From a virus: a stretch of DNA of 23,054 nt. The stretch covers positions 1-23,054 of IMG/VR virus record IMGVR_UViG_3300010354_000694. The stretch is one strand, 5' to 3'. A program made the translations under genes and the position numbers. This document shows, in pieces, positions 6,001 through 21,713 of the stretch. Numbering within the stretch: position 1 is the first letter of the stretch; the number at the start of each line of letters is the position of its first letter. The notes beneath the pieces are model-generated. The model was not told the origin of the DNA, searched no databases, and worked only from the letters and a program-made list of their open reading frames with translations.

Positions 6001-9000
6001 TTCTCAGCGTGAGTGTGCTTCCACTGCTTCTGCTATCCTTCAGCTAACAGAGAACATCACCACTATTATTAACACTGGTCTAACCAAAGTTGTTAATGGT
6101 GTCACTGTTCCTACAGTAGATCGTGTAGAACCAACTTTCAACACTGCTCTACTTGCATCTAGAGCAACTGTATTCACAATTGATACAACTGGTTACGGTT
6201 CAACAGATGCTCATGACTTTGAGACTGGAACTCCTGTTAGACTTGTTCCACGTCCTCGTTTTAATCCAGCAACTGGTAAGTATGTTGATGTTGATAAGCG
6301 TGTTATTAGACTGCCTAATGGATTTGATACTAATACAACTTACTATGTGATTGCTCCTGGTAGAGCAACACAACCAGTAGATTACAGCGGATCAACTCTC
6401 TTTGATGAGACTGCAGTTACTAGATTGATGCTCGCAACCTCTAAGGAGAATGCTGCTGCTGGTATTTACATCTACGCATCAGAAACAGAATCTATTGATC
6501 CAGATATTGAGATCGATCTCTATCAGTTTGTACTTGATGACAAGTATGATCTTCATACCTATTCATGTAATCTAGTCAATACCGTTGTTGGCGGTATTGA
6601 GACAGATATTGCTCACATTTTTGATATACCTTCTACTGCAACAACTCCTCAGAAAGTATTCTTTAGAGCAATTGAAGGAAGTGATCTCCCAGATCTTGCT
6701 ACAAATTATGCTACAGATCCAAATGTTGCAATCACAACTGGCGTCAATGCTGGTAAGATTAACCCAAGTGTTGAATTTTATGTTCGTTATCAGACCAGCA
6801 AAGTCTTCACAATTCATAAGACTCTTGCTGATGCCTTAAACGATGTAAATCCAATCACTTTCAACAACGCCAACGGTCCATTTAGAGTATTTGCTAACAA
6901 GAAGCGCAGCCCAATGCGCTTTGATCCAGGATTTAATGGTTCTGACACCAACAATGGTAAGTGGTACTTACAGTGTCTGGATAGAGAAACTGAAGGAAAC
7001 GCAGTTTTCTATAATGAAATCTTCTACAGAATCAATGAGTCTGATTATCAAAGCAAGCCTACTACAACTGACACTTGGTATGAGCGTGTTGATGATACTA
7101 GAGATGCTAATGAGAGAACTTATAAACTCCGTTATGTCATTCCTAAGTACATTGAGAACGCAAGAGATCCTATCAATGGATTTGTTATTAAGACAAGAAC
7201 TGACGATACCCGTAAGTTAGTTCCTCAGAAACTACTACTCAAGCCTGTTGCTGGTAATGTTTATGGTGCTCGTTTTGAGAACCCACAACAACCAGGAGAA
7301 TTCATTGGATTTACCAAGGAACAATTTGCTGCAGATGATACACTAAATGATCTTAATGCATATGATCCATACAGAAGACCTCTAACTGGTGAGGATCAGG
7401 ATACTGATTATCGTGCAATTGCAAGATTTACATCTGGTGTTGCTGCTACAATTCAGTCTGGTCGTTATGTTGAGGATGTATTAGATGCATCTATTAAATA
7501 CCTAGAACTTACCGTATTCGATCTTGGAATTGATACTAAGAACTTCCCTGGTCTAAGAAATGAGATCCTAACAACTGTCAAGATCTCTGCTCCTCAGGGT
7601 GGTGCTTTTATTCCTAATAAGACACAGAGTATCGCTAACAATGCAGTTTCATTTGCTGGTAACTCTTCAGGTACTGCTTATATTCACGGATACTTTAATG
7701 TTGGTGGCGACCACTACCTAATTATCAAGGGTATCAGTGGTGCCAAGGGAAGTGCTTCTCTGGAGTATAGTGAATTCCAAGGCACACGATTCACTCAGGG
7801 TGCTGTCTTTGCTGATATGCTGGATGACCAGGATATGGGCAAATCGTTACCTCTGAAGACACATATCCGAAAAAATTTCCCAGAGTATTTTTACAAGCAA
7901 AACGGCGCTAACGTTTATACCATTACTCCTGGTGATCGTATTCAAGATGACGCTGGTATTGAATACTATGTTTATAGTGTAGAAGATGCTGGTGTTATTG
8001 AAGATACTTTCTACATCTTCGATAGCGAAGAACTTCAGAAGCGTATTCCTGGACAGCAAGATGGTATCTACTATCTAACAGCTCTCCGTGGTAATATCTC
8101 TCCATATCCAACTGGCGCTGGCGCTGGTGGAAACTTCCGTAAGTTCAAGTTCTCCCAACCAGTTGGTAAGATCTATCCTCTAAATTATAGAAATGATCCT
8201 CTCTGGTTCCAGAAGTCTGGTACAACTAACGAAGAGAAGAACTACTACTCCCAGTTGATTGATCCACCTCAGGCATTCTCTGCTGCTGATAACTATATCC
8301 ATGGCAAAGTCACTGTTAATGATACCAAGAACTCTGTAACCAAGGAACTTGTTATTGATCTTCTTAATCAACCTGCGTTTGTTGAGAATACTTATACCAA
8401 TGAGAACGAGATTCAGGCACAATTAGGTAATGCAACTTCTGGATCAGAAGATCGTCGTATTCCTATCTCTGGTGACAGCACAGTTCTTACTGATCAGCGT
8501 TACTATGTTGAACTCCGCAGACCATCTATTGCTCGTGCTGGTAACCACACGTTTGAATACCTTGGTTTCGGTCCTGGTAACTACTCAACAGGTCTTCCTG
8601 CCCGCCAGGAGATCGTTCTAGAACCAGAGCAAGACTTCTACGCACAAGCTAAGAAGCAAGATGCTGGTATCGTATTCTACACTGGTATCAACTCCCAGGG
8701 TGATCTCTACATCGGTAACAGAAGAATTAACGCTATCACTGGCGAAGAAGACTTCATCGATAGAGCAGTTCTTGCTGATGATGGTGATGCTGACGACGTA
8801 ATCGGACAACTCGTTACTACATTCGACACACCTGTAACGTTCAACCAGAATATTACAATTGTTGGTGGTCCAGATGGAGAACTTGTTAATAATATCAACT
8901 CCCCAATTCTTATCAATGTCCCAGATAATCAGTTAAGTAATCTTGGAGCACCTCTTGTTGTATATTCACTAGTAAGTTCAACTGATCCTATCAGTGGATA

Positions 9001-12000
9001 TCCTCAAGATACTACTCTTGATAGAAATAGTTTCTTCCCAAATACATCTGGTGATATCAGACTTGGCAAGAATAGAGTTGATGCCGCAATCTTTGGATTC
9101 AATCCAAGAGGAGAAGGTCAGAATTATAAGATTCAAACCCATGCTCCTGGTGGAATAGCATCAAATATTTCTCCAAATCAAGATACTCTGATTTCTCAGG
9201 GTGGATCTAGAATTAATGCAAACCAATATATTACATATGGTGGCACTGTTCTTCCTTCCACTGGAGATATGGCACTCAAGGGTGGTGCGGTTAATAAGAA
9301 TGGATCTCTTGGTTGGATCTTTGCTAACATTTACACAACAATTCCAAACAACGTAATTTCTTCCCTGAAAGTTGTTGTTGATCAGAGTGTTAATATCGCT
9401 AAATTCACATTTATCGATAGCAACAGCAATCCAGTTCCTGTTGGATCTCTTAACATTAAGTCTGGATCTGAAATCAGACTACAGAACATTAATTATAGTG
9501 GTGTTCTGAATGGAACATGGCCAGTTCTTTCTACTCAAGATTATCCATTCAATCCATTGGGTAACGTTGTATATTTCCAAGTTACTCCAAGAACTGGAAC
9601 TCCAATTGGTGCATTTGATGAAACATGGAGCAGTGGAATTATCAACAATCCCACAAACCCATCTACAAATGCTATTGTTTCTTTCTCTGTATCAAACTGG
9701 AAAGAGTTTGGTGTCCTAGGTTCCGAAGCAATTAGAACTGAAACTGAAACCATTGGCGATTACAAGCTTGGTATTAACACTATCAACAGAGCAACACATG
9801 ATGCATACAAGGATGCATTTGTTGAAGTTGCAAACACTGATCCTCGTGCTAACCTTGACGTTGTTGGTAACGCATACATCAGCGGTCGTAAGACTACTGA
9901 TTGGTTGTCACATGATGACTTTGCTGACCGTGAAAAGAATAAGATCTCTGATGCACTCGTCGTTGGTGGAAATAGTTCCAACATTGATGAATATGCAACA
10001 TTGCGTGTTTCCACTGAAGAGATTGCAATCACTGAATCTGGCAGAGGAAATAATGCTGGTAAGATCGGTGTCAATGTTACTGATGCTGAACTTGACAGAG
10101 CATTAGTTGTTAAGGGTAACGCAAGATTTACTGAAGACGTTCGCTTTGAGCGTGATATTGAGATTCATGGAGATGGTACTCTAACCGAGGTAAGAACTGA
10201 TACTACAACTGGTACATTCAACTTCATCACTGATGCCAACTTCACTGGAACTCTAAACATTGCTAACTCTGCTAGCGTACTTAACTTTGTTAATAACGCT
10301 ACTACAATTGAGTTTGGTAATGATGCTGCTACCAATACATTCTACTTTGGTAATGACGTAGCAGGAGATCAGTTCTTCTACTTCGGTAACACTGCAGATC
10401 ACAGCAACTTCTTTATTGGTAACACAGAAGATAGTGCAATTGTTGCTGCTAATGGATCTATTGCAGTAACTGGTAATGGAATTAGCAGAATAATGATCGG
10501 TGGTGCATTTGGTAACAGCAACCAAGATCAGTCTTACACAAGAATTGGATCTCAAATTCTTAGAATTGATGGTGATGCCTGGTTAGGTTTCCGTCGTCAA
10601 GGTGGAACTGCTAGAATGAGATCACAGGCATCTGTGATTGATTTCTTCTCTAACTCTGGTGGTCCTTCGACAATTAATTTTGCTCTGAATGCATCTGAGA
10701 TTAACATTGCTGGTCAGGGTGGCAAAACAACTATCAACAACCAGTTAGAGGTTGTTGCTTCTGCGAAGTTCAATTCAAATATCCTTCTTTGTGGTGGTCT
10801 TTCTTCCTTCTCCTTCTCTGGAAACAGAGCACAGATGGGATCAGTCATCTCAACACATGATGATGGAGTTAATCCAGATGGAACATTCATCAAAAACGTT
10901 GATATCCTGAATGTACTTGTTCTTGATCCACTGACAGATGGATATAATGCTGTTGATACTGCTGGTTCTGGAACATGGGGTGGATCATCTCACCAAGAAG
11001 CAGAAACATTTGATGGTTCTGCTGAACCAGTCGCAATTCCAGCTCTGAGTGGAGACGAGTATTACCTACCAATTAAATATTCTCCAAACAAAGCAAATGG
11101 AGATCCATATCTAACCACTGGTGATTACATCATTGTTAATAGTGCAATTGTTGGATCTACAAATCACCCAGAGATTGTTCAGATTCTTGAAGTTGTAAGA
11201 GCTGTTGCTCCATATTACCTAAGAGTTAAGCGTCGTCCATTTGGTGCATTTGGCGGTGTTCTGACAAATCATGCAGATACAACTGCAATCTATAAGGTTA
11301 ATGTACAGTTTGATGCTACATGGATCGAACAACCAGTAGATGGTGCAGGAGCACAAGATAACTTCTATCTTGCTGAGTTTGGTGGAGATCTCACCACTAA
11401 TGATTACATCCTTCTCAGTAGAGATGATGCTACTGGAACACCAGAATATGTAAAAGTTGTAACTCCGCTATCACAAGAAGTTCAGAAGTTCCGAATTGCT
11501 GATGGTACTGACTGTGATAATACCGATGGAGATGTATTTGTTGTTGATTCTAAGACTGGAGAGACTTACATCGGTGGATCTGTCACAGTTGATTCTTCCA
11601 TCGTTCAAAATGGTGGTTGCTTCCTGACATCTTCCCTGGTAACAGGTGATTTAGTACCAGAAACTGAGATTAATTTAACGTATAACATTACTAATATTAG
11701 CGATGAAGATATTGCTAATATTGATCTTGGTGACACTGTTAAGTTAAAAACTGGCACTGCTTCTTCCGAATTCTTCTATCCTTGGTCTAAAGTTGTTGAG
11801 ATTGAGAATAAAGGTGGCGATCAGAACAGTGTCAAGTTGTCTGTAGCAGCTGTGAATTTTAGCACAGAAGAAAATCTACAGTTTGAGTTTGGTAAGAATG
11901 AGGTATTCGCAATTAATAATGGACATGACCAATCAACATTACACTTTGACAGTTGCTCTGGAACACTTGAAATTGGTAATCAATATAGAAGATTTGAAAT

Positions 12001-13492
12001 TAAGAGAATTTTACCAGATGTTGAAACTGTATCAGAAACAGTTGCAAGATATGATGGCGATGTCTTCAAAACAATTAGAGTATATGGTTATCAGCAAGAT
12101 CCAAAATCTATTCAAGAAAATGGACCAAAAACTACTTTAAGTTCTGGTGCATCGACAGGATTAATTCCTAATTCTGTTTATCTAACTTGTGCTTCTATTG
12201 GAACTGGAGATGGTGCTTTTGCTGTTGGTGACTTGGTTATGGTCGGTGATACAGCAGATATTGATTCCAAGGGAATTAATGGAAATCAGTGGGAGATAAT
12301 GAAAATTGCCTCTATTGATGCAGTTAATAATATATTGAGATGTCTTCCAGGACAAGAAGGAACAACAGCAAGAGCTCTTACTGATTATCCTGCGATTTCA
12401 ACAACAGTAATGAGACTCATTAAGCATCCAGAGACTTCGCTAATCTATGATATTCAACAGAGAACGAGATCGAGTGTCGGTTTTGTTTCTCTAATTCTTG
12501 AGAAAGGATATATTTCTCAAACAATCATGGATTATGCTCAGTATTTCAGATTCTATGATACTACTGGAGTTTTGGATGATGAGTGGTTCTATGTTCCAAC
12601 TTGCCTAAGAGGAAAGCGTCACGAAACTGTGATGAATGAACAAGTTTATTCTGGTCAGTTTGGTGAGTATTCGCAGAGAATCGGTAATCTGGTTCTTAAC
12701 AATGATCTTGAGATGATCGGTGGTCAAATTCTCATGTATGATTCCACGAGAAAGACCAAAATTCTAAACTTTATTAATGATGGAGGACACTCTGATCACC
12801 AAGGAGAACTATATTTCGATGCTAAGGTGACAGGAAGAGGAACAATCACAATGTATGGATTGGGATGTCCAGAAGAGGTTTATTCCACATGTGATCCAAC
12901 CTTTGCTGTGAATCAGGACGGTGACGTGACAGCATTGAGAACTTTCTCAATCACTGGTATTGCTTCCACAAATCCACCAACATCACCAATATTGACGGTC
13001 AAGAACCTTGGCGTTCAGGGTGGATCTGAATTTACAGTAAATCATGATTGTTCTATTGATGCCTTTGGATACGACAAATTCTATACTAGAACTGGTGGTA
13101 GACATGCGAGATACCTAGCATCTGGTACTGACACCGAAAATCTATACCTGAAACCAAATATTAATTACTTTGTAAATGTAAGTGATGGAGATAATTTTGT
13201 TGTTTATCTACCAGAGGCTCCAATTTCTGGAGATACTGTTACTATTATTGATGTTGGTGGAAATCTAACATACAACACTTCATTGGTTGTTAGAGCACAG
13301 GGAACTGGAGTTAAAGTACAGGGAGATAGCACAGGAACAACCCTTGGTGGTCTTGCTTCTGCATATCCATCTGGTGAACTTGTTGTACAAACAGCACATG
13401 CCGCATTCACACTAATCTATCTTGGTGGTACTGATACTACTGGAGCAATTGTTTCTTCTAGTGTCAATGGATGGTGGCTCAAGGAGGTCTAA
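53..13492 (+). CDS. Giant repeat-containing virion structural / tail-fibre protein (4479 aa)
   Basis: This is a very large phage structural protein, probably a tail-fibre shaft or scaffold that helps display the host-recognition proteins encoded just downstream. Residues 15-60 carry the 'NSPVTPF.SIQ.A' signature that opens many phage beta-helix (pectate-lyase-like) fibre domains. Residues 507-533 hold an N-S-N-S-N-F-G-N stretch also typical of such fibres. Residues about 660-2000 are predicted mostly helical and made of repeats (listed separately). From about 2040 onward the sequence turns beta-rich, with shaft-like repeats near 3390-3500 ('LVVKGNARFTEDV', 'FGN' repeats). Residues 4370-4479 form a compact end domain finishing in G-W-W-L-K-E-V. 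No transmembrane segment or enzyme motif was recognised. Downstream collar genes follow after 3 bases. The exact virion position (long fibre or baseplate spike) cannot be told from sequence. Structural role is confident; the fibre assignment is moderate. Confidence 0.82.
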   Translation: MPLTRLDNLISSKTGKYLYVSPDDFNATDSLSNRGNSPVTPFKSIQRAFLEIARYSYTPGPSNDRFDQFSIMLMPGIYYIDNRPGLVDTSGIDVFDFNQALNAWGDDPILDISNPDNILWRFNNTEGGAIIPRGSSLVGYDLRRTTVRPLYVPDPASVTVPRSAIFNVTGGCYFWQFTLKDGQTTAESPLYNPQTGTGEVYYDPNDFTRKTAPNFSHHKLTVFEYADKEELQLFYRKIAKAFSAYQPTIDDVSPEGIPEFDYNVQENRIVGPLSDSRVIESLKFTDATTNPAIPSSTTEIEVTTKVDHGYFAGQFVAISGTEIDDEIEGFWGIYDISDDPRKFTYRVPFVVSGIGQGLSSGITVSVDTTPALGQNAQVLAEVDSVESASPYVFNVSIRSVWGICGIWANGLKATGFKSMVIAQYTGVSLQRDDRAFIRYDEYANTWNQASLVDAFASVPYHAKGDSYWKDDWRNFHVRASDDAFIQNVSIFAVGFADHFLMESGGDMSITNSNSNFGNTSLHAIGFKGFSFNQDKAGYITDIIPPQQVVESETNRKRVLYYTIDVQGTIQDGANRTKLYLGGTDLDNPLDRPAATIGGYRIGGKSGDKLYVKLDKKNNIDTFQTTLSPTGFVKYIAKGSILNPSNYTINNVNVDAANLIESNRRMIQEEVFGYILEKYPRLQNISYVNPSLNPAAGRYLDAKNLIIANRQEIVDTAFDEMVEAFGIGNIQGVADGKCKRDIGFIVDAIAEDLRDGGNANIIAATREYFDGNGDAISNGLVGEEVPSVFAFNRARDLCKKAIANLLTVKASIYDPETDNLLAPYGVISGSTGSAALGLDSEGVTVDKANRQDPAGRYKDARNRIIANRDFILDAALAEVAVYHDDFYFPGTAQTTSKSRFYDGFRMIRRNSKEIADRALAKIAFEHPDFYFPGDAQTTADSRFYDSYRLIQQNKDEIQDRALAQIAINHPDFYIPGSDQTTTQSRFFDSYRLIQQNRTDIINTAWNNMVAVYPGVAGTETKCKRDLGYFVDAISLDIFMGGNKYARKFVSMYFASGAPIGNGLVGEEAESIRAFQEARDLMGQAVANQLAVKDLSLTADPATGSNIDPNSCANVQSAIDSLTLIVTDVIAAGSLVGMAAETPYSIEAGELKCRRDLGFFIDAVSLDLFIRGNEYSYRFAAEYFDVNGVAISNGLVGETAESITAFNKARDMMKLAITNSLYEKDLTLTADPVTGDNQDQASCANVQTALDTLTSIVTTIVADGNLSSLPVEINKGSAPAGMEKCGRDIGYFIDAIAVDLFTGGNKHTRTFIQQYFDGNTPISNGLAGEESESITAFNEASSYMQLAVTNELYYRDLTVTADPATGSNQDPNSCANVRSAISTLTTYVTDALTAGNLNTLPTENAGSFQTGELKCRRDLGYVVDAVAQDLWFGGNEYTIAATKEYFNGNSLIANGVDNEIAPSITAFKRAADLMNRAVNNQYYDRDLTLTLDQIGDPAFVADIHADAYNLVLDNKEFIAAEAYERMLSAYPSYQPSAGNTKQDCLDDVYDVLEEVMWDVKFGGNSKTYDAAEIYVTNVFNGEPIDTFLDAERDEAAKVFLEAKNIAIQCLRNETVNVSPGNTLTQVKDLTIVNDWDDDFAPLPQCGSAAGAVDTLFGIILQAVGNDGGVGNLNGVTRTAPAQPTTYALGNCSDVLATIDTLIGIVCDALYAGSLDTLPPLSNGEWDCANVRSSIENLFDIITDAISSGSLAGLPVLNRGDFIVNAESSKCFRDVAYIVDAIVNDLKYGGNINSVQAGEAYFVGTQLEYIDGEKAETIDAWNYVGQMAIAAMRNFDFLAYNCATTNSSALVTIPDAAGTGTRDVPASAIINVGDNSGIIIGMKVEEYPSGSYTNGLLNAGSTPVTTNIPEGTYVKSLIGSDSIELGTYGSRLDSGVNQNCQQPPSSTVSLYFTYEQGAWADTLPKTVVVGPEASDPDVIQDTTTSPSQRECASTASAILQLTENITTIINTGLTKVVNGVTVPTVDRVEPTFNTALLASRATVFTIDTTGYGSTDAHDFETGTPVRLVPRPRFNPATGKYVDVDKRVIRLPNGFDTNTTYYVIAPGRATQPVDYSGSTLFDETAVTRLMLATSKENAAAGIYIYASETESIDPDIEIDLYQFVLDDKYDLHTYSCNLVNTVVGGIETDIAHIFDIPSTATTPQKVFFRAIEGSDLPDLATNYATDPNVAITTGVNAGKINPSVEFYVRYQTSKVFTIHKTLADALNDVNPITFNNANGPFRVFANKKRSPMRFDPGFNGSDTNNGKWYLQCLDRETEGNAVFYNEIFYRINESDYQSKPTTTDTWYERVDDTRDANERTYKLRYVIPKYIENARDPINGFVIKTRTDDTRKLVPQKLLLKPVAGNVYGARFENPQQPGEFIGFTKEQFAADDTLNDLNAYDPYRRPLTGEDQDTDYRAIARFTSGVAATIQSGRYVEDVLDASIKYLELTVFDLGIDTKNFPGLRNEILTTVKISAPQGGAFIPNKTQSIANNAVSFAGNSSGTAYIHGYFNVGGDHYLIIKGISGAKGSASLEYSEFQGTRFTQGAVFADMLDDQDMGKSLPLKTHIRKNFPEYFYKQNGANVYTITPGDRIQDDAGIEYYVYSVEDAGVIEDTFYIFDSEELQKRIPGQQDGIYYLTALRGNISPYPTGAGAGGNFRKFKFSQPVGKIYPLNYRNDPLWFQKSGTTNEEKNYYSQLIDPPQAFSAADNYIHGKVTVNDTKNSVTKELVIDLLNQPAFVENTYTNENEIQAQLGNATSGSEDRRIPISGDSTVLTDQRYYVELRRPSIARAGNHTFEYLGFGPGNYSTGLPARQEIVLEPEQDFYAQAKKQDAGIVFYTGINSQGDLYIGNRRINAITGEEDFIDRAVLADDGDADDVIGQLVTTFDTPVTFNQNITIVGGPDGELVNNINSPILINVPDNQLSNLGAPLVVYSLVSSTDPISGYPQDTTLDRNSFFPNTSGDIRLGKNRVDAAIFGFNPRGEGQNYKIQTHAPGGIASNISPNQDTLISQGGSRINANQYITYGGTVLPSTGDMALKGGAVNKNGSLGWIFANIYTTIPNNVISSLKVVVDQSVNIAKFTFIDSNSNPVPVGSLNIKSGSEIRLQNINYSGVLNGTWPVLSTQDYPFNPLGNVVYFQVTPRTGTPIGAFDETWSSGIINNPTNPSTNAIVSFSVSNWKEFGVLGSEAIRTETETIGDYKLGINTINRATHDAYKDAFVEVANTDPRANLDVVGNAYISGRKTTDWLSHDDFADREKNKISDALVVGGNSSNIDEYATLRVSTEEIAITESGRGNNAGKIGVNVTDAELDRALVVKGNARFTEDVRFERDIEIHGDGTLTEVRTDTTTGTFNFITDANFTGTLNIANSASVLNFVNNATTIEFGNDAATNTFYFGNDVAGDQFFYFGNTADHSNFFIGNTEDSAIVAANGSIAVTGNGISRIMIGGAFGNSNQDQSYTRIGSQILRIDGDAWLGFRRQGGTARMRSQASVIDFFSNSGGPSTINFALNASEINIAGQGGKTTINNQLEVVASAKFNSNILLCGGLSSFSFSGNRAQMGSVISTHDDGVNPDGTFIKNVDILNVLVLDPLTDGYNAVDTAGSGTWGGSSHQEAETFDGSAEPVAIPALSGDEYYLPIKYSPNKANGDPYLTTGDYIIVNSAIVGSTNHPEIVQILEVVRAVAPYYLRVKRRPFGAFGGVLTNHADTTAIYKVNVQFDATWIEQPVDGAGAQDNFYLAEFGGDLTTNDYILLSRDDATGTPEYVKVVTPLSQEVQKFRIADGTDCDNTDGDVFVVDSKTGETYIGGSVTVDSSIVQNGGCFLTSSLVTGDLVPETEINLTYNITNISDEDIANIDLGDTVKLKTGTASSEFFYPWSKVVEIENKGGDQNSVKLSVAAVNFSTEENLQFEFGKNEVFAINNGHDQSTLHFDSCSGTLEIGNQYRRFEIKRILPDVETVSETVARYDGDVFKTIRVYGYQQDPKSIQENGPKTTLSSGASTGLIPNSVYLTCASIGTGDGAFAVGDLVMVGDTADIDSKGINGNQWEIMKIASIDAVNNILRCLPGQEGTTARALTDYPAISTTVMRLIKHPETSLIYDIQQRTRSSVGFVSLILEKGYISQTIMDYAQYFRFYDTTGVLDDEWFYVPTCLRGKRHETVMNEQVYSGQFGEYSQRIGNLVLNNDLEMIGGQILMYDSTRKTKILNFINDGGHSDHQGELYFDAKVTGRGTITMYGLGCPEEVYSTCDPTFAVNQDGDVTALRTFSITGIASTNPPTSPILTVKNLGVQGGSEFTVNHDCSIDAFGYDKFYTRTGGRHARYLASGTDTENLYLKPNINYFVNVSDGDNFVVYLPEAPISGDTVTIIDVGGNLTYNTSLVVRAQGTGVKVQGDSTGTTLGGLASAYPSGELVVQTAHAAFTLIYLGGTDTTGAIVSSSVNGWWLKEV
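2258..6090 (+). repeat. About 130-residue bipartite repeats with conserved Cys in the giant protein
   Basis: A repeat unit opens with K-C-x-R-D-(I/L)-G, continues through DA..D....GGN, NGL.GE and AF..A, and closes with (S)-C-A-N-V followed by a helix ending in a G-(S/N)-L turn. First-half copies have their Cys at residues 737, 1021, 1151, 1283, 1413, 1542 (divergent) and 1768. Second-half copies have theirs at 1110, 1241, 1372, 1643, 1689, 1725 and 1988. Spacing is 130-132 residues in the central full copies. DNA is partly conserved too (for example GATCCTAACTCCTG.GCTAACGTTC), which points to tandem duplication. Confidence 0.88.
2705..3091 (+). repeat. Three tandem 43-residue (129-bp) repeats in the giant protein
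   Basis: Three in-register copies begin at residues 885, 928 and 971. Each reads roughly F-Y-(F/I)-P-G, then QTT..SRF(Y/F)D, then (F/Y)R.I..N..(E/D)I, and ends with a helical ALA.IA segment in the first two copies. Copies 2 and 3 are closest at the DNA level, sharing TTTGATTCATATCGT-like stretches. They sit just before the 130-residue repeats and look like a short helical solenoid or coiled segment in the stalk. Confidence 0.85.
10313..10450 (+). repeat. 11-12-residue FGN beta repeats in the fibre shaft
   Basis: Four short repeats of the form (F/I)-G-N-(D/T) begin at residues 3421, 3432, 3444 and 3455, with spacings of 11, 12 and 11. Between them lie alternating small/polar and aromatic residues (TFY, QFFY, NFF). 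This periodicity is typical of short beta-strands in trimeric phage fibre shafts. The repeat is seen directly; the shaft fold is inferred. Confidence 0.6.
13481..13488 (+). promoter_or_regulatory. Strong Shine-Dalgarno AAGGAGGT for the first collar gene
   Basis: AAGGAGGT ends 7 bases before the ATG at 13496 and lies inside the last codons of the giant gene. It is the best ribosome-binding site in the window. It supports the chosen start and suggests this collar protein is translated efficiently from the same late transcript. Confidence 0.85.
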
Positions 13493-13495
13493 TAA

Positions 13496-14878
13496 ATGGG
13501 AAGCTATAACCGAATAAAAGCAAGTAAAAATTTTCCGATTGGAACTATTATGCCATGGTCTGGTGGATCTAGACGAGGTGATGAAGCTGATCGAGTACCA
13601 GCTGGGTGGATAATATGTAATCAAGCAAATAGTTTATTATTTGCCGCTGATTATCCTATTCTTGCAAAAATTATAGGAAACACATATGGTCCAATACCAG
13701 AAACGGCTGATCAAGAAATTGGCGTAAATTATGGGATTGTAAATCAGTATCCATATAATCCACCAGATACTAGTCCAGACCACAATCCTAACTTACATGT
13801 TGATGTTTTTTCTCTGCCAAATTTAAATCAACTTGCTCTCGTTGATCTAGAGGGATCTAGATTATCAACAACGGATCTTTTGCAAGTCGGACAATATATT
13901 AGCACTAATGGAACTGAAGAAGGAAAACAAGCTCTAACCCTGATTAGATCTGATGTTGATATTCAATTTGACCTTGAACCATCAAATACACTTGCTGGAA
14001 AAATTACTGGTATAGCAATGTCTGATCCAGTTTATTTTGATACGCTTTATGTGCTCCCAAGAAAGTTGGGCATTGATCATATGCCGAACCATAATCACCA
14101 ACCCCAGAGTGCTGATGAGTTTGATCAATTTATTACTGCTGTTCCTTCTGGAACTAGTGTATTAGAATTTCAACCAGGAATTCCACTAAAGAATGATGCT
14201 GCAAAAACAACTGCTGTAACACCAGTTGGCAGAAAGGGAACAAGTTCTTCGGCACATACATTTAAACCAGGAAAAGCAGAAATTACTTGGTATGATCCAA
14301 ATGATGGTGGTATTTCTTTGGTTACAACGGATCAAAAAGTAAATATAGCTAGTAATTTGAATTTGATTCCGCAAGTGCAATCTAGAGTTATTCCAGAACA
14401 ATTTGGTATTGAATTTTCATATACTGATCCTGGAACTTCAATTGCAAATGTTCAAGCAGATGCTCATACTGGAGCATTTCCACCAGCAGGATATTATCAA
14501 GGAAAAAGAAATTATTATCAAAGTGTAGATATTCCAGCAGAACATAGGGGTGCTGATATGCCAGCATCTAATATTGCTGATATGATTTATGATCCAGCTC
14601 AGGAAAAACAACCAATCAACACAAGTGTAACAAATACATTTGCAACAACTCTAAACCATCCTAATGAGGAATGGGCATCTACTGGATTAAAATCTCATGA
14701 TCACGATTCCATGGAATTAACAATGAATAGGGGTGGATTGGGAATTACAACAACATTACTTGTTAATGATGTTTCTACTGGTACAACTTCTCCACTATCT
14801 ATTGAAACCGCTCTTAGTGTGGCAATCAATCCCAATACGCCCTCACTAACGATGATATATATTATGAGAGCTTTCTAA
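13496..14878 (+). CDS. Tail-collar-domain protein 1 (460 aa)
   Basis: This is a short-fibre or baseplate-associated adhesin of the phage tail-collar family (as in T4 gp12-type proteins). The collar module covers residues 13-110: F-P-I-G-T-I-M-P-W, then V-P-A-G-W-I-I-C, then the D-Y-P-I-L...I-I-G-N-T-Y-G block, and finally F-S-L-P-N-L at 105-110. Two H-x-H motifs follow, at H199/H201 and H401/H403 (the latter in H-D-H-D). In T4 fibres such motifs bind metal inside the trimer. The C-terminus ends in M-I-Y-I-M-R-A-F, resembling the ends of the next two proteins. It starts 3 bases after the giant gene with a strong Shine-Dalgarno and is followed after 2 bases by a second collar gene. It is the plainest of the three, with no Cys-rich or Gly-rich insert. 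Family call is strong; the precise tail position is inferred. Confidence 0.88.
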   Translation: MGSYNRIKASKNFPIGTIMPWSGGSRRGDEADRVPAGWIICNQANSLLFAADYPILAKIIGNTYGPIPETADQEIGVNYGIVNQYPYNPPDTSPDHNPNLHVDVFSLPNLNQLALVDLEGSRLSTTDLLQVGQYISTNGTEEGKQALTLIRSDVDIQFDLEPSNTLAGKITGIAMSDPVYFDTLYVLPRKLGIDHMPNHNHQPQSADEFDQFITAVPSGTSVLEFQPGIPLKNDAAKTTAVTPVGRKGTSSSAHTFKPGKAEITWYDPNDGGISLVTTDQKVNIASNLNLIPQVQSRVIPEQFGIEFSYTDPGTSIANVQADAHTGAFPPAGYYQGKRNYYQSVDIPAEHRGADMPASNIADMIYDPAQEKQPINTSVTNTFATTLNHPNEEWASTGLKSHDHDSMELTMNRGGLGITTTLLVNDVSTGTTSPLSIETALSVAINPNTPSLTMIYIMRAF

Positions 14879-14880
14879 AA

Positions 14881-16227
14881 ATGGCAGTATTCTACAACAG
14901 AGAGAAAGCAAGGCATGGTGGATTGACAGGAACTATTATATCGGTTCCTGTTCAGATTGCTTCTAATGATCCAGCTTCATCGATACAAAAGGCACAATTT
15001 CCTGCTGGATATTTAAGATGTGATGGAGGCATCTATACAGCAGATGATTATCCTTTGCTTGCTGAGGTTCTTGGAGTTGGGGATAATTGTAAATTTAAGA
15101 AAGATAATCAACCATTAAATGAAACTCAGTTTCAGTTGCCAGATCTTAGAAGTAAGCATATAAGAGCAACTACTTCATCCAACATTGGATTTTATAATGA
15201 CCTAGTAGTTCAAACTCAAGATGGCGATGATGTTGTAAAATCTGGTGTTGGGTTGGAAGTACTTCAGAATATTGAGAGTCCATATGAATTAACTTATAAT
15301 GGATCATTCTATATTCCACCCCAGTCTCAACCGTTGAAGGGAGAACCAGCTTTTAGTATTGATAGCGGAACCTACACATTTGAAAGAGAAGTTGCAGAAA
15401 ATGGTTTCCAACCACATATGCACAGATCAACAACATCTCGTGCTAGACAGGTTGATAAAAATGGAAATTATTTTTCAAATACTCAAGTAAATTCTATAAA
15501 GACTAGGTTATCTCTTAATACCTGTGAATGGTGGAAAAATACAAGGCAAGATCTTTGTTACTGGCAATTAACAACAGCTGCTGCCATTGATAATCCTGGA
15601 AAAACTGAAAACGCAACTTCATATTATGAACAATATGGTTTATGCTGGAATGCTTGTAGTGGATTTACTACAGCTGGATATTGCTTGTGGCCTAGTACCA
15701 CTGCTTGCCCTGGTTTGAATAATTCAAAAAACATGTGTATTGTTTTGGATGTCGCAAGTGATTGCAACACCCTCAAAGGAAATATCTGTGAAGGAACAAC
15801 ATTTGGCAATATTACATATGATCCAACATTCACACAAAATTGTGTTTGTACTCTTCCGATTCTTGGTGAATGTCCTGGTGCATTGAATGGTGGTGATTTA
15901 AGTCTCCCACAAAGTACATCTCAGTTGGTCAATTATGATGATCCAAACATGCCAGTCAGTAGTTTGGATGACAGCTATTCTACTGGATATGCTGCTGTAA
16001 GTAATTACACAATGCTTACTGGATTCAAAGGGGACGATGCTATTCATAAACATACGTTGAATTTTAGTGCAGATGAACCTCATACTTATGTTATGAAGAC
16101 TAGAGCTGGTAGTGCATCTGCTGCATCTGGACTAGTTTCTAAGATAACAATACAAAAAAACAACGAACCAAAGGCGGATAAATATATTCAACCATACATT
16201 GTCACCGAATATTTAATTAAGGTATAA
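14881..16227 (+). CDS. Tail-collar-domain protein 2 with cysteine-rich middle (448 aa)
   Basis: This is a second collar-family structural protein, probably a host-binding tip or short fibre. The collar module is at residues 13-92: G-T-I-I, F-P-A-G-Y-L-R-C-D-G-G (40-50), D-Y-P-L-L-A-E-V-L-G and F-Q-L-P-D-L-R (84-90). H-x-H motifs are at H179/H181 and H389/H391. Between them lies an unusual stretch, residues 215-331, holding 12 cysteines (215, 226, 255, 259, 268, 276, 286, 295, 303, 321, 323, 331) along with many Trp and Tyr. I do not recognise this insert; disulfides or metal binding are possible. The protein ends in V-T-E-Y-L-I-K-V. A modest GAGAG ribosome-binding site (14866-14870) precedes the start, and the next gene begins directly after the stop. 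Collar family is confident; the role of the insert is unknown. Confidence 0.87.
   Translation: MAVFYNREKARHGGLTGTIISVPVQIASNDPASSIQKAQFPAGYLRCDGGIYTADDYPLLAEVLGVGDNCKFKKDNQPLNETQFQLPDLRSKHIRATTSSNIGFYNDLVVQTQDGDDVVKSGVGLEVLQNIESPYELTYNGSFYIPPQSQPLKGEPAFSIDSGTYTFEREVAENGFQPHMHRSTTSRARQVDKNGNYFSNTQVNSIKTRLSLNTCEWWKNTRQDLCYWQLTTAAAIDNPGKTENATSYYEQYGLCWNACSGFTTAGYCLWPSTTACPGLNNSKNMCIVLDVASDCNTLKGNICEGTTFGNITYDPTFTQNCVCTLPILGECPGALNGGDLSLPQSTSQLVNYDDPNMPVSSLDDSYSTGYAAVSNYTMLTGFKGDDAIHKHTLNFSADEPHTYVMKTRAGSASAASGLVSKITIQKNNEPKADKYIQPYIVTEYLIKV
15523..15873 (+). other. Cysteine-rich insert of collar protein 2
   Basis: This region encodes residues 215-331, with 12 Cys codons in 117 residues, including C-V-C (321-323) and C-W-N-A-C (255-259). 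The other proteins of the window have few cysteines per 100 residues, so this is a clear local enrichment. It lies between the two H-x-H motifs that frame the middle of the protein. Confidence 0.85.
16177..16184 (+). promoter_or_regulatory. Candidate internal late promoter GATAAATA
   Basis: GATAAATA is an exact NATAAATA late-box match within the 3' coding end of collar protein 2. It lies 43 bases before the ATG of collar protein 3, nearly the same distance as the box before the giant gene (41 bases). Because it sits in coding sequence, chance occurrence is possible. Confidence 0.4.
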
Positions 16228-19200
16228 ATGGCAAGTTATAGACCTACGTTTGAGAACTTTTATTCGGATAAAGGTGGTTTCTATTCAACAATAGGAGCTA
16301 TCATGCCCGTATTGGTGAATAGTTATACTGACAGCTCCAATACTGTTACTGGTGGCAATCCAGATCACTATGCACATAGGGGATTTTTATATTGTGATGG
16401 ATCGGAATATTTTATTAGAGATTATCCTCTATTGTACAGAGTCGTTGGCAATAACTATGTTAAGTCAGCAGACAAAGTAAATAATAATTCTCATTTTTTT
16501 CAAAGTGCTGGTGAAGACGGTTCTATATACAGAACTTTTGTTGATAATGGAAACTTGTATGCTGAGATATACAAGTATGATTATACGTTTGATAATGCTA
16601 ACGTTGTTAAATACAGATCAACTCCAAATGGTGCAACTTTAAGGTTTGTTGGCAGCCTGGGATCTTTTCCTGATGGTGGTCTATTTTCAGCAGACGTTGA
16701 TTACCTTTTGGAATACAGTGATGCTTATCAAAATCTAGCACAAGATAGCAATACTACAGTTCATAGATTTATAGTAGATGGTGCTACTATATCTACTCCT
16801 GTTGTCTGGTCAGTAAATATGCCAGATCTTGTTCTAAATTTTGAGGGAGATCTTGTTCTTCCCATTCAATACTTTGGAACTGTTCCAGAATATGAACAAG
16901 ATCCAGCAACTGGACAATATTCAACTTCTCAAACTGGATATGATAGTTATGTATTAGATGGAGCATTAAATACAAGTCCAGCAGTTTCTTGGGGATCTCC
17001 ATCTGGACTTCCTGATGGAGTTGTTGTGGATGAATATGAGATTTATTTGGAGAATCTTTCTCTGGAAAATTTTGTTTGTTGGCACCTTTCCAACATCCCA
17101 GCAACAACAACATTTTTGGTTCCAAATGCCGAACCACCAAATGGTTCTACAGTTCAAACAAATAATGCGAATTCTGTCTTACAAAATGCTGATGGCACAA
17201 AACCTTGGATAAGAAGTAATGGTTATTCTGGACCACAACCAGAAAAAGGTGATACAAACATCTACAAGATGAATGTAATTGCATATCTATCTAACGGACA
17301 GACATTAGTTGTATCAAAAGAATTTATTGCTGGAGATGGACCTATTGTTCCAGTTTATTTAACTGGATCTGCATATACAGATAATCTCATTGTTGGTGGG
17401 TCTGGAAGTTCTATAAGTGGTAGCGATTTTAATATTTTATGGTCTAATCTTGCTACTCATCCCTCTGTGAGAATAAGGAAAGCATTTAGTTTAAGTGATT
17501 CTCCCTATCAATTAGGAAAATTTAGAGTTCCCGATTATCGTGATAGAAAATTAATCGGATACGGAGAAGGTGTTGAGGGAACAGGAACTCCATTGGTTGA
17601 AGACAGAATTAGCATCAAAGTTGGCGACATTGGTGGAAAATGGTTTATTCCAACCAGTGCAATTAAAGATCCACTTGAATTCTTTTCTATTAGTGATGTA
17701 TCTACAACTGGTTATTCCAATGTTCAAACCCAAATTCAGGCATATCTTACTGGATCAAAGAAATATGTAGTTGGACCAATTGATGATTATATTTTCTCAA
17801 AGCCACCAAGTCATCAACACCAACTTTTAACTTCAAGACTAAATGAAAGCAACGAAGTTAGTCTCGCTGGTGTAGATACATTTGCTATTCAATACTTAGA
17901 AAGTAAAGGAACTATATTAGAATTTACTCCTGGCGGAGAATTTACTGATGATTCTCCGTTTGGGCATTCGCATGGATTATTGGGAAGTAAGCCAATCAAC
18001 AAAGTTATGGCTACTTATGGTAATATAGATGGTATTGGTGTAAAGTATGAAGATACACAAAACTCTGGATGTTACACATATGGAGTTACAGAATCTCCGC
18101 CATTACTAACAACATCTGTCAGCAGTGATGGTACTTATATTACGGTTGTTACTTCTAATTCCCATGGATTATCACCAAATGATTGGGTCACTATTACTAA
18201 TGCGGGAAGTTTAAATGGAAGCTATAAAATCATAGCAACTGGAATAACATCTACTAGTTTTAATCTTCAGCCAAATCCAGCACCAGCAGTAACAACTGAA
18301 AATTCTGCTGTTGTGAAGCAAGCTAGTGGAATTTTTGAAGAGGTGACAAGCACACCAGATCCAGATTGTTGGGTTGTCAATAATAACACTGTTATTGGTG
18401 GAAAAGAAACGATTGCAATTCCTGCTGGAAATTATAAAATTTCTTATGACGATGAACTTACATCGTCAGGCAATCTTCTTAAGACTGCTGCTGATGGTGG
18501 AGCAAATGTATTAAGATATAGAATTGATATGTATGCTCCTGGCGGCGGTGGTGCTGGAACATCTGGTAATGGTGGAAATGCTGGAAGTGCATCAGTAACT
18601 TTTACCGTTAGTGGAGTACAATATACAGTTACTGCTAGTGGTGGATCTGGAGGCACAGCAGGGACATCTGGAGGCGCTGGTGGAAGTGGAGGTACGGTTA
18701 GTATTCCAACAGCTTTAGTTAGTGAACCTAAAGTTGAAATTAGTTCTACGACAGAAAACAAGGATGGAAGTACTGGAGGACAATCAAACAGCGCACAGCC
18801 ACCTGGGGGATTGTTGAACGGTGGTCCAGATGCACTAGCTGGAAATGGTGGAAAGGGCGGATATACCACAACATTGGTAACTGGCAGTCTTAGTAAAACC
18901 TTTACTGCAGATGGTAGTTATGATTCGACAACAGATGGTGATTTACCAACAATTGGTGGAAACACAGCAACTGTTGATAGTGTGAGTATTGATATCTCTG
19001 GTGGTGCGGGTGGAGATGGAAACAACAATGCAGTAGCTGGGTGTAGTACAATTGGTGGCAGTGGATCTAAAGGCAGAAGAGTTACTGGAACCACAACTTC
19101 AATTAAATCTTTTAATTTCGAAATTGGTACGAAGGGCGGAAATGGATTTAATAACCAATCTGGCAATGTACAAGAAGTAACCAACACTTCTGTAGGAACT

Positions 19201-20751
19201 GGTGCAGCAAATGGTGGTAATGGCGGACTAGGTTCATGGGCTAATGGTGGAACTGGTGGCGCTGGCGGTGGTGCTACTGGTGTTTCTGGCAACATTGGAT
19301 ATATTCTTGGTGCTGGCGGTGGCGGTGGCGCTGGAGGATCTGGTGGTAATGCATCTCAGGGTGATGGGTGTTCTTATGGAAACAATGGTAAAGGTCCAGA
19401 AGGTGGTATAGTAGGAACTACTTCTATTGGTCCTTACACTGGTGGTGCAGGCGGATCAACTGGATGCACAGGCGGTGGTGGCGGCGGCGGTGGTGGTGGA
19501 TTCTACATCGCTGGTTCTGGTGGTGGTGCTGGTACTGCTGATGGTGGTGCCGCAGGTGTTGCTCACCCGCAGTATGGAACTACTGGAGGTGGAGGTGGTG
19601 GTTATTCTGGATATTCTGCATATAATTCAAATTATTTTAGTACTGCCACTGAAAGTGATGGATCTAGTGGTAATGGATATGCGAAATTTACAGTAAATTA
19701 TTCTGGCACACAGATCAATCAATCTGGTGGTGGTGGAGGTGGCGGCGCTGCAGCAACTATCATTATTAGTGGAACTCTCGATGATTTGGGTCAATTTGCA
19801 ACAGCAATTAGCGCAACTTTGGGCACTCCTGGTGGTGCTGGTTCTGGAAATGGATCTTCTGGAAGTAATGGATATATCAGAGTTAGAGCGTATTATATCG
19901 AACAGGGAGATGCCCAAGTGGTTGATATTTCAACTCCTGGTGGTAGAGTGTGGGAAACTGCTGGATTTCCAACTAATAAACCATCTGGATCTGGAGCTTC
20001 TGTTGGTGGAGCCATTTGGCATTCCTCCAGTACGGGAGTGAATGTTAAGCAAGCATCTACTGGAACATTTCCTGTTGCTACCACATTAACTGGTGGTATT
20101 TCTGATAGATACATTGAATTTGCTGGTTCTGGTAGCCGTTATCTCCAACTCGGACCATTGAATCTGAGTGCCGCAGAACAACTAGTTTTTACAGTGATTA
20201 AAGGAAACGGCACCAACGGTGGGGATGCACCAGAAGAGCCATTGGATTTGTATTATAAAACTTCTGTAGATTCTCCAACAGAAACTCTATTACAGTCTAT
20301 TGCAACTGCTACTGTAACTGCCAGTGGATATGCTGATTACACAATTGACGTTGATGATTCTTCCCCGATAAAATTTAATGGTGTATATCTGGTCATAAGA
20401 CAAACTAGAGGATCAACTTCTGGTGATAATTCTGCTGTTAATGAAGCACAATTAGATTATTGGGGATTGGGTATGTTCTCTGTTGTTTATGGGGAGGTTA
20501 CACAAACTGTATTTACTCCATCATTAAACTCATCAATCCCTGGAAATGAAGGAACATGTGGTCCTGACAGTGGAATTGATGTTGTTCGCAGGACTGTTCC
20601 CGCAAATAAAACTAATATTACATTTACTGACGGAACTTTCCAATTATCGACATCTACTCCAATTTCTATAACGTCATCTGCATATGTTGTGAATACTATT
20701 CCACTGATCACCAAATATCATAGATCAAAATATTTGATTAAAGCATTCTAA
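16228..20751 (+). CDS. Multidomain tail-collar adhesin with PEBP-like insert and glycine-rich domain (1507 aa)
   Basis: This is probably a large host-recognition adhesin. A collar module begins at residues 22-78 (I-G-A-I-M-P; C56-D-G; D-Y-P-L-L...V-V-G-N-N-Y). Its expected F-R-V-P-D-Y-R motif appears only at 432-438, so about 350 residues are inserted. Within the insert, residues about 195-365 resemble a PEBP/YbhB domain: N-T-S-P-A-V-S-W (248-255), C-W-H-L-S-N-I-P (284-291) and G-Y-S-G-P-Q-P..G (332-341). H-x-H motifs are at 529/531 and 580/582. Residues 632-690 form a small beta module also seen in the giant protein. Residues 772-1220 are glycine-rich. About 1290-1420 looks like a beta-sandwich. 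The C-terminus is S-K-Y-L-I-K-A-F. An AAGG ribosome site ends 5 bases before the ATG, which directly abuts the previous stop. The collar call is confident, the PEBP call moderate, and the receptor unknown. Confidence 0.87.
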   Translation: MASYRPTFENFYSDKGGFYSTIGAIMPVLVNSYTDSSNTVTGGNPDHYAHRGFLYCDGSEYFIRDYPLLYRVVGNNYVKSADKVNNNSHFFQSAGEDGSIYRTFVDNGNLYAEIYKYDYTFDNANVVKYRSTPNGATLRFVGSLGSFPDGGLFSADVDYLLEYSDAYQNLAQDSNTTVHRFIVDGATISTPVVWSVNMPDLVLNFEGDLVLPIQYFGTVPEYEQDPATGQYSTSQTGYDSYVLDGALNTSPAVSWGSPSGLPDGVVVDEYEIYLENLSLENFVCWHLSNIPATTTFLVPNAEPPNGSTVQTNNANSVLQNADGTKPWIRSNGYSGPQPEKGDTNIYKMNVIAYLSNGQTLVVSKEFIAGDGPIVPVYLTGSAYTDNLIVGGSGSSISGSDFNILWSNLATHPSVRIRKAFSLSDSPYQLGKFRVPDYRDRKLIGYGEGVEGTGTPLVEDRISIKVGDIGGKWFIPTSAIKDPLEFFSISDVSTTGYSNVQTQIQAYLTGSKKYVVGPIDDYIFSKPPSHQHQLLTSRLNESNEVSLAGVDTFAIQYLESKGTILEFTPGGEFTDDSPFGHSHGLLGSKPINKVMATYGNIDGIGVKYEDTQNSGCYTYGVTESPPLLTTSVSSDGTYITVVTSNSHGLSPNDWVTITNAGSLNGSYKIIATGITSTSFNLQPNPAPAVTTENSAVVKQASGIFEEVTSTPDPDCWVVNNNTVIGGKETIAIPAGNYKISYDDELTSSGNLLKTAADGGANVLRYRIDMYAPGGGGAGTSGNGGNAGSASVTFTVSGVQYTVTASGGSGGTAGTSGGAGGSGGTVSIPTALVSEPKVEISSTTENKDGSTGGQSNSAQPPGGLLNGGPDALAGNGGKGGYTTTLVTGSLSKTFTADGSYDSTTDGDLPTIGGNTATVDSVSIDISGGAGGDGNNNAVAGCSTIGGSGSKGRRVTGTTTSIKSFNFEIGTKGGNGFNNQSGNVQEVTNTSVGTGAANGGNGGLGSWANGGTGGAGGGATGVSGNIGYILGAGGGGGAGGSGGNASQGDGCSYGNNGKGPEGGIVGTTSIGPYTGGAGGSTGCTGGGGGGGGGGFYIAGSGGGAGTADGGAAGVAHPQYGTTGGGGGGYSGYSAYNSNYFSTATESDGSSGNGYAKFTVNYSGTQINQSGGGGGGGAAATIIISGTLDDLGQFATAISATLGTPGGAGSGNGSSGSNGYIRVRAYYIEQGDAQVVDISTPGGRVWETAGFPTNKPSGSGASVGGAIWHSSSTGVNVKQASTGTFPVATTLTGGISDRYIEFAGSGSRYLQLGPLNLSAAEQLVFTVIKGNGTNGGDAPEEPLDLYYKTSVDSPTETLLQSIATATVTASGYADYTIDVDDSSPIKFNGVYLVIRQTRGSTSGDNSAVNEAQLDYWGLGMFSVVYGEVTQTVFTPSLNSSIPGNEGTCGPDSGIDVVRRTVPANKTNITFTDGTFQLSTSTPISITSSAYVVNTIPLITKYHRSKYLIKAF
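16810..17322 (+). other. PEBP/YbhB-like domain inserted in the collar module
   Basis: Residues 195-365 of collar protein 3 follow the PEBP order: a strand ending in L-P-I-Q-Y-F, then S-P-A-V-S-W (250-255), then W285-H-L-S-N-I-P-A, then G-Y-S-G-P-Q-P-E-K-G (332-341), then I-Y-K-M-N-V-I-A-Y-L (345-354). Compared with bacterial YbhB proteins, the ligand-site D-P-D-x-P is replaced by a Leu/Glu/Asn-rich stretch, the His before the Trp is Cys284, and the H-R-Y His is Asn344. This suggests a PEBP fold with an altered or lost anion pocket. Confidence 0.62.
18538..19890 (+). repeat. Glycine-rich (polyglycine) domain of collar protein 3
   Basis: Residues about 772-1220 are dominated by Gly with Ser, Thr, Asn and Ala. 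They include runs of nine or ten glycines near 19473-19500 and recurrent GGAGG, GGNGG and GTGG units. They begin at the Y-A-P-G-G-G-G turn typical of phage glycine-rich domains. The DNA is a degenerate GGT/GGA/GGC-rich low-complexity tract. Similar polyglycine blocks form stacked polyglycine-II helices in the receptor-binding tips of some T-even phages; whether this one does is inference. Confidence 0.85.
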
Positions 20752-20780: not shown

Positions 20781-21713
20781 ATGGCAACCAGAGTATCCAG
20801 TAACGTCGAATTTTATATGAACACCATTGAACGTGTCATTCAATATAAAGGCGTTCAAAAACAAATTAACGATGATTATTGGGAGTCTTCTATTGCCCCA
20901 CTTCTCTATCCATTTTGGGACAATCCAAAGGATAGACTAGAGTTGTTTGTTTATAACAAGGATGATTCTTTTGTTGTCACCAGAAGTAAATATAAGAGAG
21001 ATTGGAAAACGAACACTTCATCTTGGGTTTCTTATTCTTTTGATCCATCAACAGCAGAACCAACTTCTGTTTTAAATTTTAAAAATCAATTAGTTGAAAA
21101 ATTTATTGAGTTTAAAGATCTTTCTGACAAGACATATGAAGACTTCATCACTCAAGAGTATTCCAGAACAAATAGCCTGACGTGGAAAAAAATTCATCTA
21201 GTCAGGAAGTTTTTACTTCAAGATTCTGATTTTATTTTCAATCAAGATTATGAAATTAGTGATGAGAAAAAAGCGTTGTGGAAACAATATAGAACTTATA
21301 TTAGAGATATTCCAGAAATTCAAAAGGGGACAGAAACTCCATTTGATGTTGTGTTTCCCATCACCCCTGATGAATATTTGAAGAGAAAGGAATTATATGT
21401 TGAACCACTAGTTACTGAGATGGTTGGAGATCAGGGAATCAATGATGATTATTTGACTAGTTCTTATCATTTCTGGAAATTGAGTGCTCCAAATCTTGCT
21501 ATGTTTGCACAGAGATTTAGTTTCTACATTGCTGCTAGAGCAATAACTTCTGATCTTGAACCAAACTATCGTATAATGGTAAGTAATTTTATCACTAAAT
21601 TTACTTCAAACCCAGAAGTTCAGGCTTCAAGAATTAATTCTGAAAATTCGAGTCTTGCATCTGATAGTTTTATTGATGATCTGTTAAATAAAATTGAAAT
21701 TGGAGAGTTGTAA
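20781..21713 (+). CDS. Virion assembly protein with tail-assembly-chaperone-like segment (310 aa)
   Basis: This is a conserved-looking soluble phage protein, probably an assembly factor for the tail fibres encoded upstream. Residues 142-196 match the pattern of the phage tail assembly chaperone (APC) family: R-x-x-L-L-x-x-S-D at the start, then L-W-K-Q-Y-R, then I-R-D-I-P, then V-F-P-I-T-P. In that family the segment normally reads 'LL..SDW...W..YR..LRDIP...WP..P'. Here Trp of SDW is Phe and WP is FP. The flanking regions (1-140 and 200-310) are hydrophilic, rich in Lys, Asp and aromatic residues, with no signal peptide or membrane segment, and I do not recognise them. Length is close to T4 neck protein gp13 (about 310 aa), but I see no motif linking them. 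It has its own late promoter and overlaps the next gene by one base (TAATG). Confidence 0.75.
   Translation: MATRVSSNVEFYMNTIERVIQYKGVQKQINDDYWESSIAPLLYPFWDNPKDRLELFVYNKDDSFVVTRSKYKRDWKTNTSSWVSYSFDPSTAEPTSVLNFKNQLVEKFIEFKDLSDKTYEDFITQEYSRTNSLTWKKIHLVRKFLLQDSDFIFNQDYEISDEKKALWKQYRTYIRDIPEIQKGTETPFDVVFPITPDEYLKRKELYVEPLVTEMVGDQGINDDYLTSSYHFWKLSAPNLAMFAQRFSFYIAARAITSDLEPNYRIMVSNFITKFTSNPEVQASRINSENSSLASDSFIDDLLNKIEIGEL

Follow-up and report, generated by a model that had tools for sequence, protein, structure and literature searches.

Gene content and genomic setting

The window analysed here is the whole of a 23,054-base IMG/VR virus record. Every megablast match to the window comes from a marine cyanophage or a marine virus record, with S-RSM4 and S-WAM2 at the top, and a near relative (L002) has a helicase gene with about 88% identity to its counterparts in Synechococcus phages S-H9-1 and S-WAM2. 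A profile search for psbA/psbD (PF00124) found none in 13 related contigs, a result that is uninformative on host assignment.

The gene order runs from a giant tail protein (53-13492, an open reading frame (ORF) of 4479 aa) through three collar proteins to a tail-fibre assembly chaperone-like protein (20781-21713, plus strand; PF16778, E = 2e-7; phrog_4697, tail assembly chaperone). Collar proteins 1 (13496-14878) and 2 (14881-16227), both on the plus strand, have an uninterrupted collar without PEBP, and their two collar parts lie within about 10-45 residues of each other, in line with the sequence-only reading of this DNA. Collar protein 3 is encoded on the same strand by an ORF of 1507 aa (16228-20751). 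This gene order is common to the window, S-RSM4, S-WAM2 and S-PM2. The S-PM2 block resembles that of the window through S-PM2d218, 219 and 220, with 224 as a later collar protein, and a long stretch of S-PM2d218 is 40% identical to the giant protein.

Architecture of collar protein 3 and extent of the insert

Collar protein 3 is composed, in order, of a collar, a PEBP insert, post-collar domains, a Gly-rich stretch and a C-terminus ending in KYLIKAF. Its PHROGs matches are a virion structural protein (phrog_30655, E = 1e-60) and a short tail fiber (phrog_4924, E = 1e-19). The Collar profile PF07484, which is matched by 37/37 family members, scores 29.1 bits against a cut-off of 24 and covers the first part only (residues 48-77, 16369-16458, plus strand; profile positions 10-39 of 57, E = 9.6e-7). 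Since the match stops at residue 77, position 39 of the 57, the rest of the collar domain lies beyond the insert, and the second collar part is found there as FRVPDYR (residues 432-438, 17521-17541, plus strand), of which PDYR is invariant in the alignment of collar relatives. The Gly-rich stretch is long and of low complexity (residues 760-1220, at about 18500-19900 of the window).

Likeness to S-PM2d224, SRSM4_211 of S-RSM4 and gp221 of S-WAM2 extends over the collar halves, the PDYR motif, the region that follows and the gene order. Unlike the window protein, these cultured collar relatives of short tail fibre type lack a PEBP between the two parts of the collar; in S-PM2d224, a distant relative of collar protein 3 (E = 3e-8), the two parts are adjacent. 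By family and gene order, collar protein 3 resembles cyanophage short tail fibres.

The sequence-only reading had placed the end of the VVGNNY block at residue 77, the start of FRVPDYR at residue 432 and a PEBP/YbhB-like domain at residues 195-365 (16810-17322), and these positions are correct. It had also taken the roughly 350 residues between the collar motifs to be inserted, and here the insertion stands while its length does not. Six homologous collars without PEBP (L026, L029, L031, L033, L035 and L036) match the Collar profile and not PEBP; their N-terminus and collar are preserved, as are the stretch behind the collar and the GKFRVPDYR segment, and they are about 200 residues shorter. 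Counterparts of residues 78-185 and 397-431 of collar protein 3 are present in these homologues, so the insert makes up only about 200 of the 350 residues, and an insertion of the entire interval is ruled out. Alignment to the PEBP-less homologues places the insert at about residues 187-396 (16786-17415, plus strand), with approximate ends. The six collars represent a natural empty form of the architecture.

Assignment of the insert to the PEBP family

Annotation of the insert was performed with profile hidden Markov models and by structure prediction. PF01161 locates a PEBP core at residues 248-352 (16969-17283, plus strand), and the predicted fold reaches about residue 370. On the excised window domain this profile scores 24.1-24.2 bits against a curated cut-off of 24 (E = 5e-5), falling to 21.9 bits in a longer piece of the protein and to E = 0.0013 on all 1507 residues; because the window copy is borderline, a quick PF01161 genome search over the window gave no match at E<=0.001. 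The window copy alone therefore sits at the cut-off, and PEBP identity is settled by its relatives, as PF01161 matches 16/16 aligned inserts with a best E of 1.5e-11. TIGR00481 reaches E = 3e-4 on the window domain, at 20.6 bits against a curated cut-off of 57.75; the domain is related to the YbhB/YbcL subfamily without being a member. Searched against the PDB, the family profile matches 1fux (8e-7), 2evv (HP0218; 4e-4) and the YbhB structures 1fjj and 1vi3 (0.003). PHROG 5139, a separate 161-position family of phage proteins of unknown function, matches weakly across the PEBP region (E = 9e-4), with no full collar protein 3 match among the matches listed.

An AlphaFold2 model of 440 residues and several domains was built from 37 sequences; its mean pLDDT is 85, and about 95 within the PEBP domain, and the model leaves the first 55 residues unresolved. 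A single-sequence AlphaFold run on residues 168-382 reached a pLDDT of 36 and was left out of the evidence. Foldseek with the model returned four PDB matches at E<=0.001, all of them PEBP structures (HP0218 and CT736; probability 1.00, E = 6e-5 to 2e-4), the result that a fold check on the sequence-only reading called for. The TMt values of 0.54-0.57, which derive from a multi-domain model, point to a fold that is clear and diverged. Could the insert be another beta-sandwich, for example an FN3-like domain of the kind common in phage tail proteins? FN3 domains do appear as weak Foldseek matches, at E above 0.03, and a BFVD structure search with the model gave no significant match; against this, the PF01161 matches to every aligned insert and the exclusively PEBP hits at E<=0.001 leave the FN3-like reading largely refuted and, in our judgement, very improbable.

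The insert family and bacterial PEBPs (1fux, YbhB 1fjj/1vi3, Helicobacter pylori HP0218 2evv and Chlamydia trachomatis CT736 3n08) have profile and fold in common, as well as the motif order SPxxxW, xWxxxxIP, GYxGPxP and, in most relatives, HxY. They differ in that the bacterial proteins are free-standing whereas the window PEBP sits inside a phage collar protein, and in that the insert family is without DPD and has its pocket His partly or wholly replaced. Profiles, empty-site relatives and predicted fold agree with the PEBP/YbhB-like domain first proposed from the sequence, and the insert is best described as a PEBP member, by predicted fold and sequence, with a non-canonical anion-binding site.

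Distribution and inheritance of the collar-PEBP architecture

A search with the window domain alone recovered two near-copies, while a flank-based search recovered 52 loci. Profile searching yielded 47 viral loci, in all of which the PEBP motif lies within a frame of collar type, followed by the PD motif wherever the contig is long enough. Collar and PEBP also share one frame at three loci in MAG contigs (L104, L105 and L106), filed as Proteobacteria and Euryarchaeota; these are probably misbinned phage contigs, because the adjoining ORFs resemble phage tail genes. Such fusions were found in dozens of marine phage sequences and in none of the cultured phage records searched: with three family members as queries, no collar-PEBP was found in 50,697 phage records, where the best matches were weak and to free-standing YbhB/YbcL-like proteins, one of them from a transduced E. 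coli bio locus. A plasmid search likewise found no collar-PEBP. A literature search, with subscription journals mostly outside its scope, found no paper on PEBP/YbhB in a phage tail protein.

Relative by relative, identity to the window is similar in the insert and in the N-terminal flank; the two diverge alike and so have a shared evolutionary history. In a tree built from the post-insert region, the label for PEBP presence needs 2 changes, compared with 8.4 when labels are shuffled. A single gain and a single loss could account for the two changes, though the root is uncertain. Two PEBP-less collars (L031 and L035) fall within the PEBP group with moderate support, and a secondary loss is possible there. 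By a simple counting method, omega of the PEBP domain is below 1 in 8/8 close pairs, indicating purifying selection on a working part of the protein. It is 0.036 for the window pair and 0.13-0.64 in the other close pairs.

The collar linker of some relatives holds further modules. An extra domain of about 130 residues precedes PEBP (around ORF residues 150-290) in L013:2402-4195, L072:3918-5678, L078 and L079; that of L013 is PA14-like (E = 2e-4, below the curated cut-off), and that of L072 has a weak galactose-binding-like match. In L067, L071, L076, L081, L086 and L090, an extra domain of about 150 residues lies between PEBP and FRVPD, for which a Pfam search on the L067 group gave no match. 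The linker appears to be a preferred site for module gain, and extra modules are usual in adhesins.

Residues of the putative ligand pocket

Pocket positions were taken from an alignment to 1fux and their conservation was assessed over 31 relatives. In PEBPs, the DPD motif, the His of HW and the His of HxY form the anion-binding site. In the window copy, Cys284 (17077-17079, plus strand) stands at the His of HW, Asn344-Ile-Tyr346 (17257-17265, plus strand) at H-x-Y, and the DPD region reads E275-N276, so that the substitutions claimed from the sequence alone (C284, N344 and no DPD) are real, though His occupies position 344 in most relatives. Across the 31, position 284 is H in 12, L in 8, Q in 7, N in 3 and C in 1; position 344 is H in 24, N in 5, V in 1 and T in 1; and position 346 is Y in 30 and F in 1. 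Both pocket His are present in 9/31 relatives and neither in 4/31, the window included. W327 and GY-x-GPQP are invariant, and the whole GYSGPQP loop almost so, in this set, which was itself picked by the GPQP motif.

The canonical anion-binding site (DPD and both His) is eroded across the family and most strongly in the window copy, where it is not retained. As most relatives have His at 344, its substitutions look derived and are probably the state of its own clade. One reading holds that the domain binds host lipid or lipopolysaccharide through their phosphate groups, as classical PEBPs do. The two canonical His kept in nine relatives and the D at position 276 in most of them speak for it, and the window copy, with C284, N344 and E275-N276 in place of the His pair and DPD, speaks against it; overall we consider it improbable. 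With the anion-site residues mostly gone, classical phosphate or phosphatidylethanolamine binding by the window copy itself would be unlikely. GYSGPQP and Tyr346 are retained, whereas the His/Asp that bind phosphate are relaxed or replaced, a pattern suggesting that the ligand of the putative pocket is probably not classical phosphatidylethanolamine.

Proposed role of the inserted domain

We propose that a T4-like cyanophage of Synechococcus type has in collar protein 3 an adhesin of the short-tail-fibre type, and that a complete PEBP-fold domain, carried by the insert of about 200 residues, occupies the loop separating the halves of the tail-collar motif. The protein would be located in the virion and, as other collar fibres, would presumably be trimeric, with PEBP as an exposed, outward side domain that may help host-envelope contact in adsorption through the modified rim of its pocket. 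We give the reading of collar protein 3 as an adhesin whose PEBP side domain contacts the host surface a probability of about 0.5.

The adhesin role is supported by the fibre-type family names and the adjoining chaperone gene, and the invariance of W327 and GY-x-GPQP counts for it, within relatives picked by GPQP. Host contact draws indirect support from two sources. S-PM2d ORFs 218, 219, 220 and 224, which belong to the block syntenic with the window, acquired non-synonymous mutations while phage and Synechococcus WH7803 shared chemostats (PMC9910659); and the same linker has taken up further modules in relatives. Other observations count against the adhesin reading: an omega of 0.036 is below expectation for an arms-race host-range determinant and is easier to square with a structural role or a fixed ligand, the canonical ligand residues are variable, and S-PM2d224 is only distantly related.

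A purely structural role is accordingly a serious rival, and we regard it as plausible at somewhat less than even odds. Here PEBP would be a repurposed scaffold, a stable beta-sandwich without a ligand that serves as stiffener or spacer of the fibre tip, or that makes contacts inside the trimer or with adjacent baseplate proteins. The unconserved pocket His and Asp, with neither His in the window copy, and the very low omega of the window pair agree with this, and the PEBP-less homologues imply that the collar has no need of a ligand pocket. Against it stand His344 in 24/31, Tyr346 in 30/31 and the almost invariant GYSGPQP loop, although the loop may be conserved in part for folding. A scaffold, which the sequence-only reading also named, or a different ligand fits at least as well as phospholipid/LPS binding.

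PEBP and tail-collar families are both known already, so what would be new is their combination rather than a family. Within the searches made, no earlier report of a PEBP in a phage tail protein came to light, which would make this one the first. Little is known of how T4-like cyanophages recognize Synechococcus and Prochlorococcus in the sea. The PEBP domain, present in dozens of marine contigs and accompanied by natural relatives that do without it, offers a directly testable candidate for host contact. As a tentative scenario, marine T4-like phages may have captured a cellular PEBP and turned it into a receptor-contact module of the collar loop, its pocket rebuilt for a non-phosphate ligand on picocyanobacteria. 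If this is true, phages would have gained in the captured PEBP a host-recognition domain of a new class.
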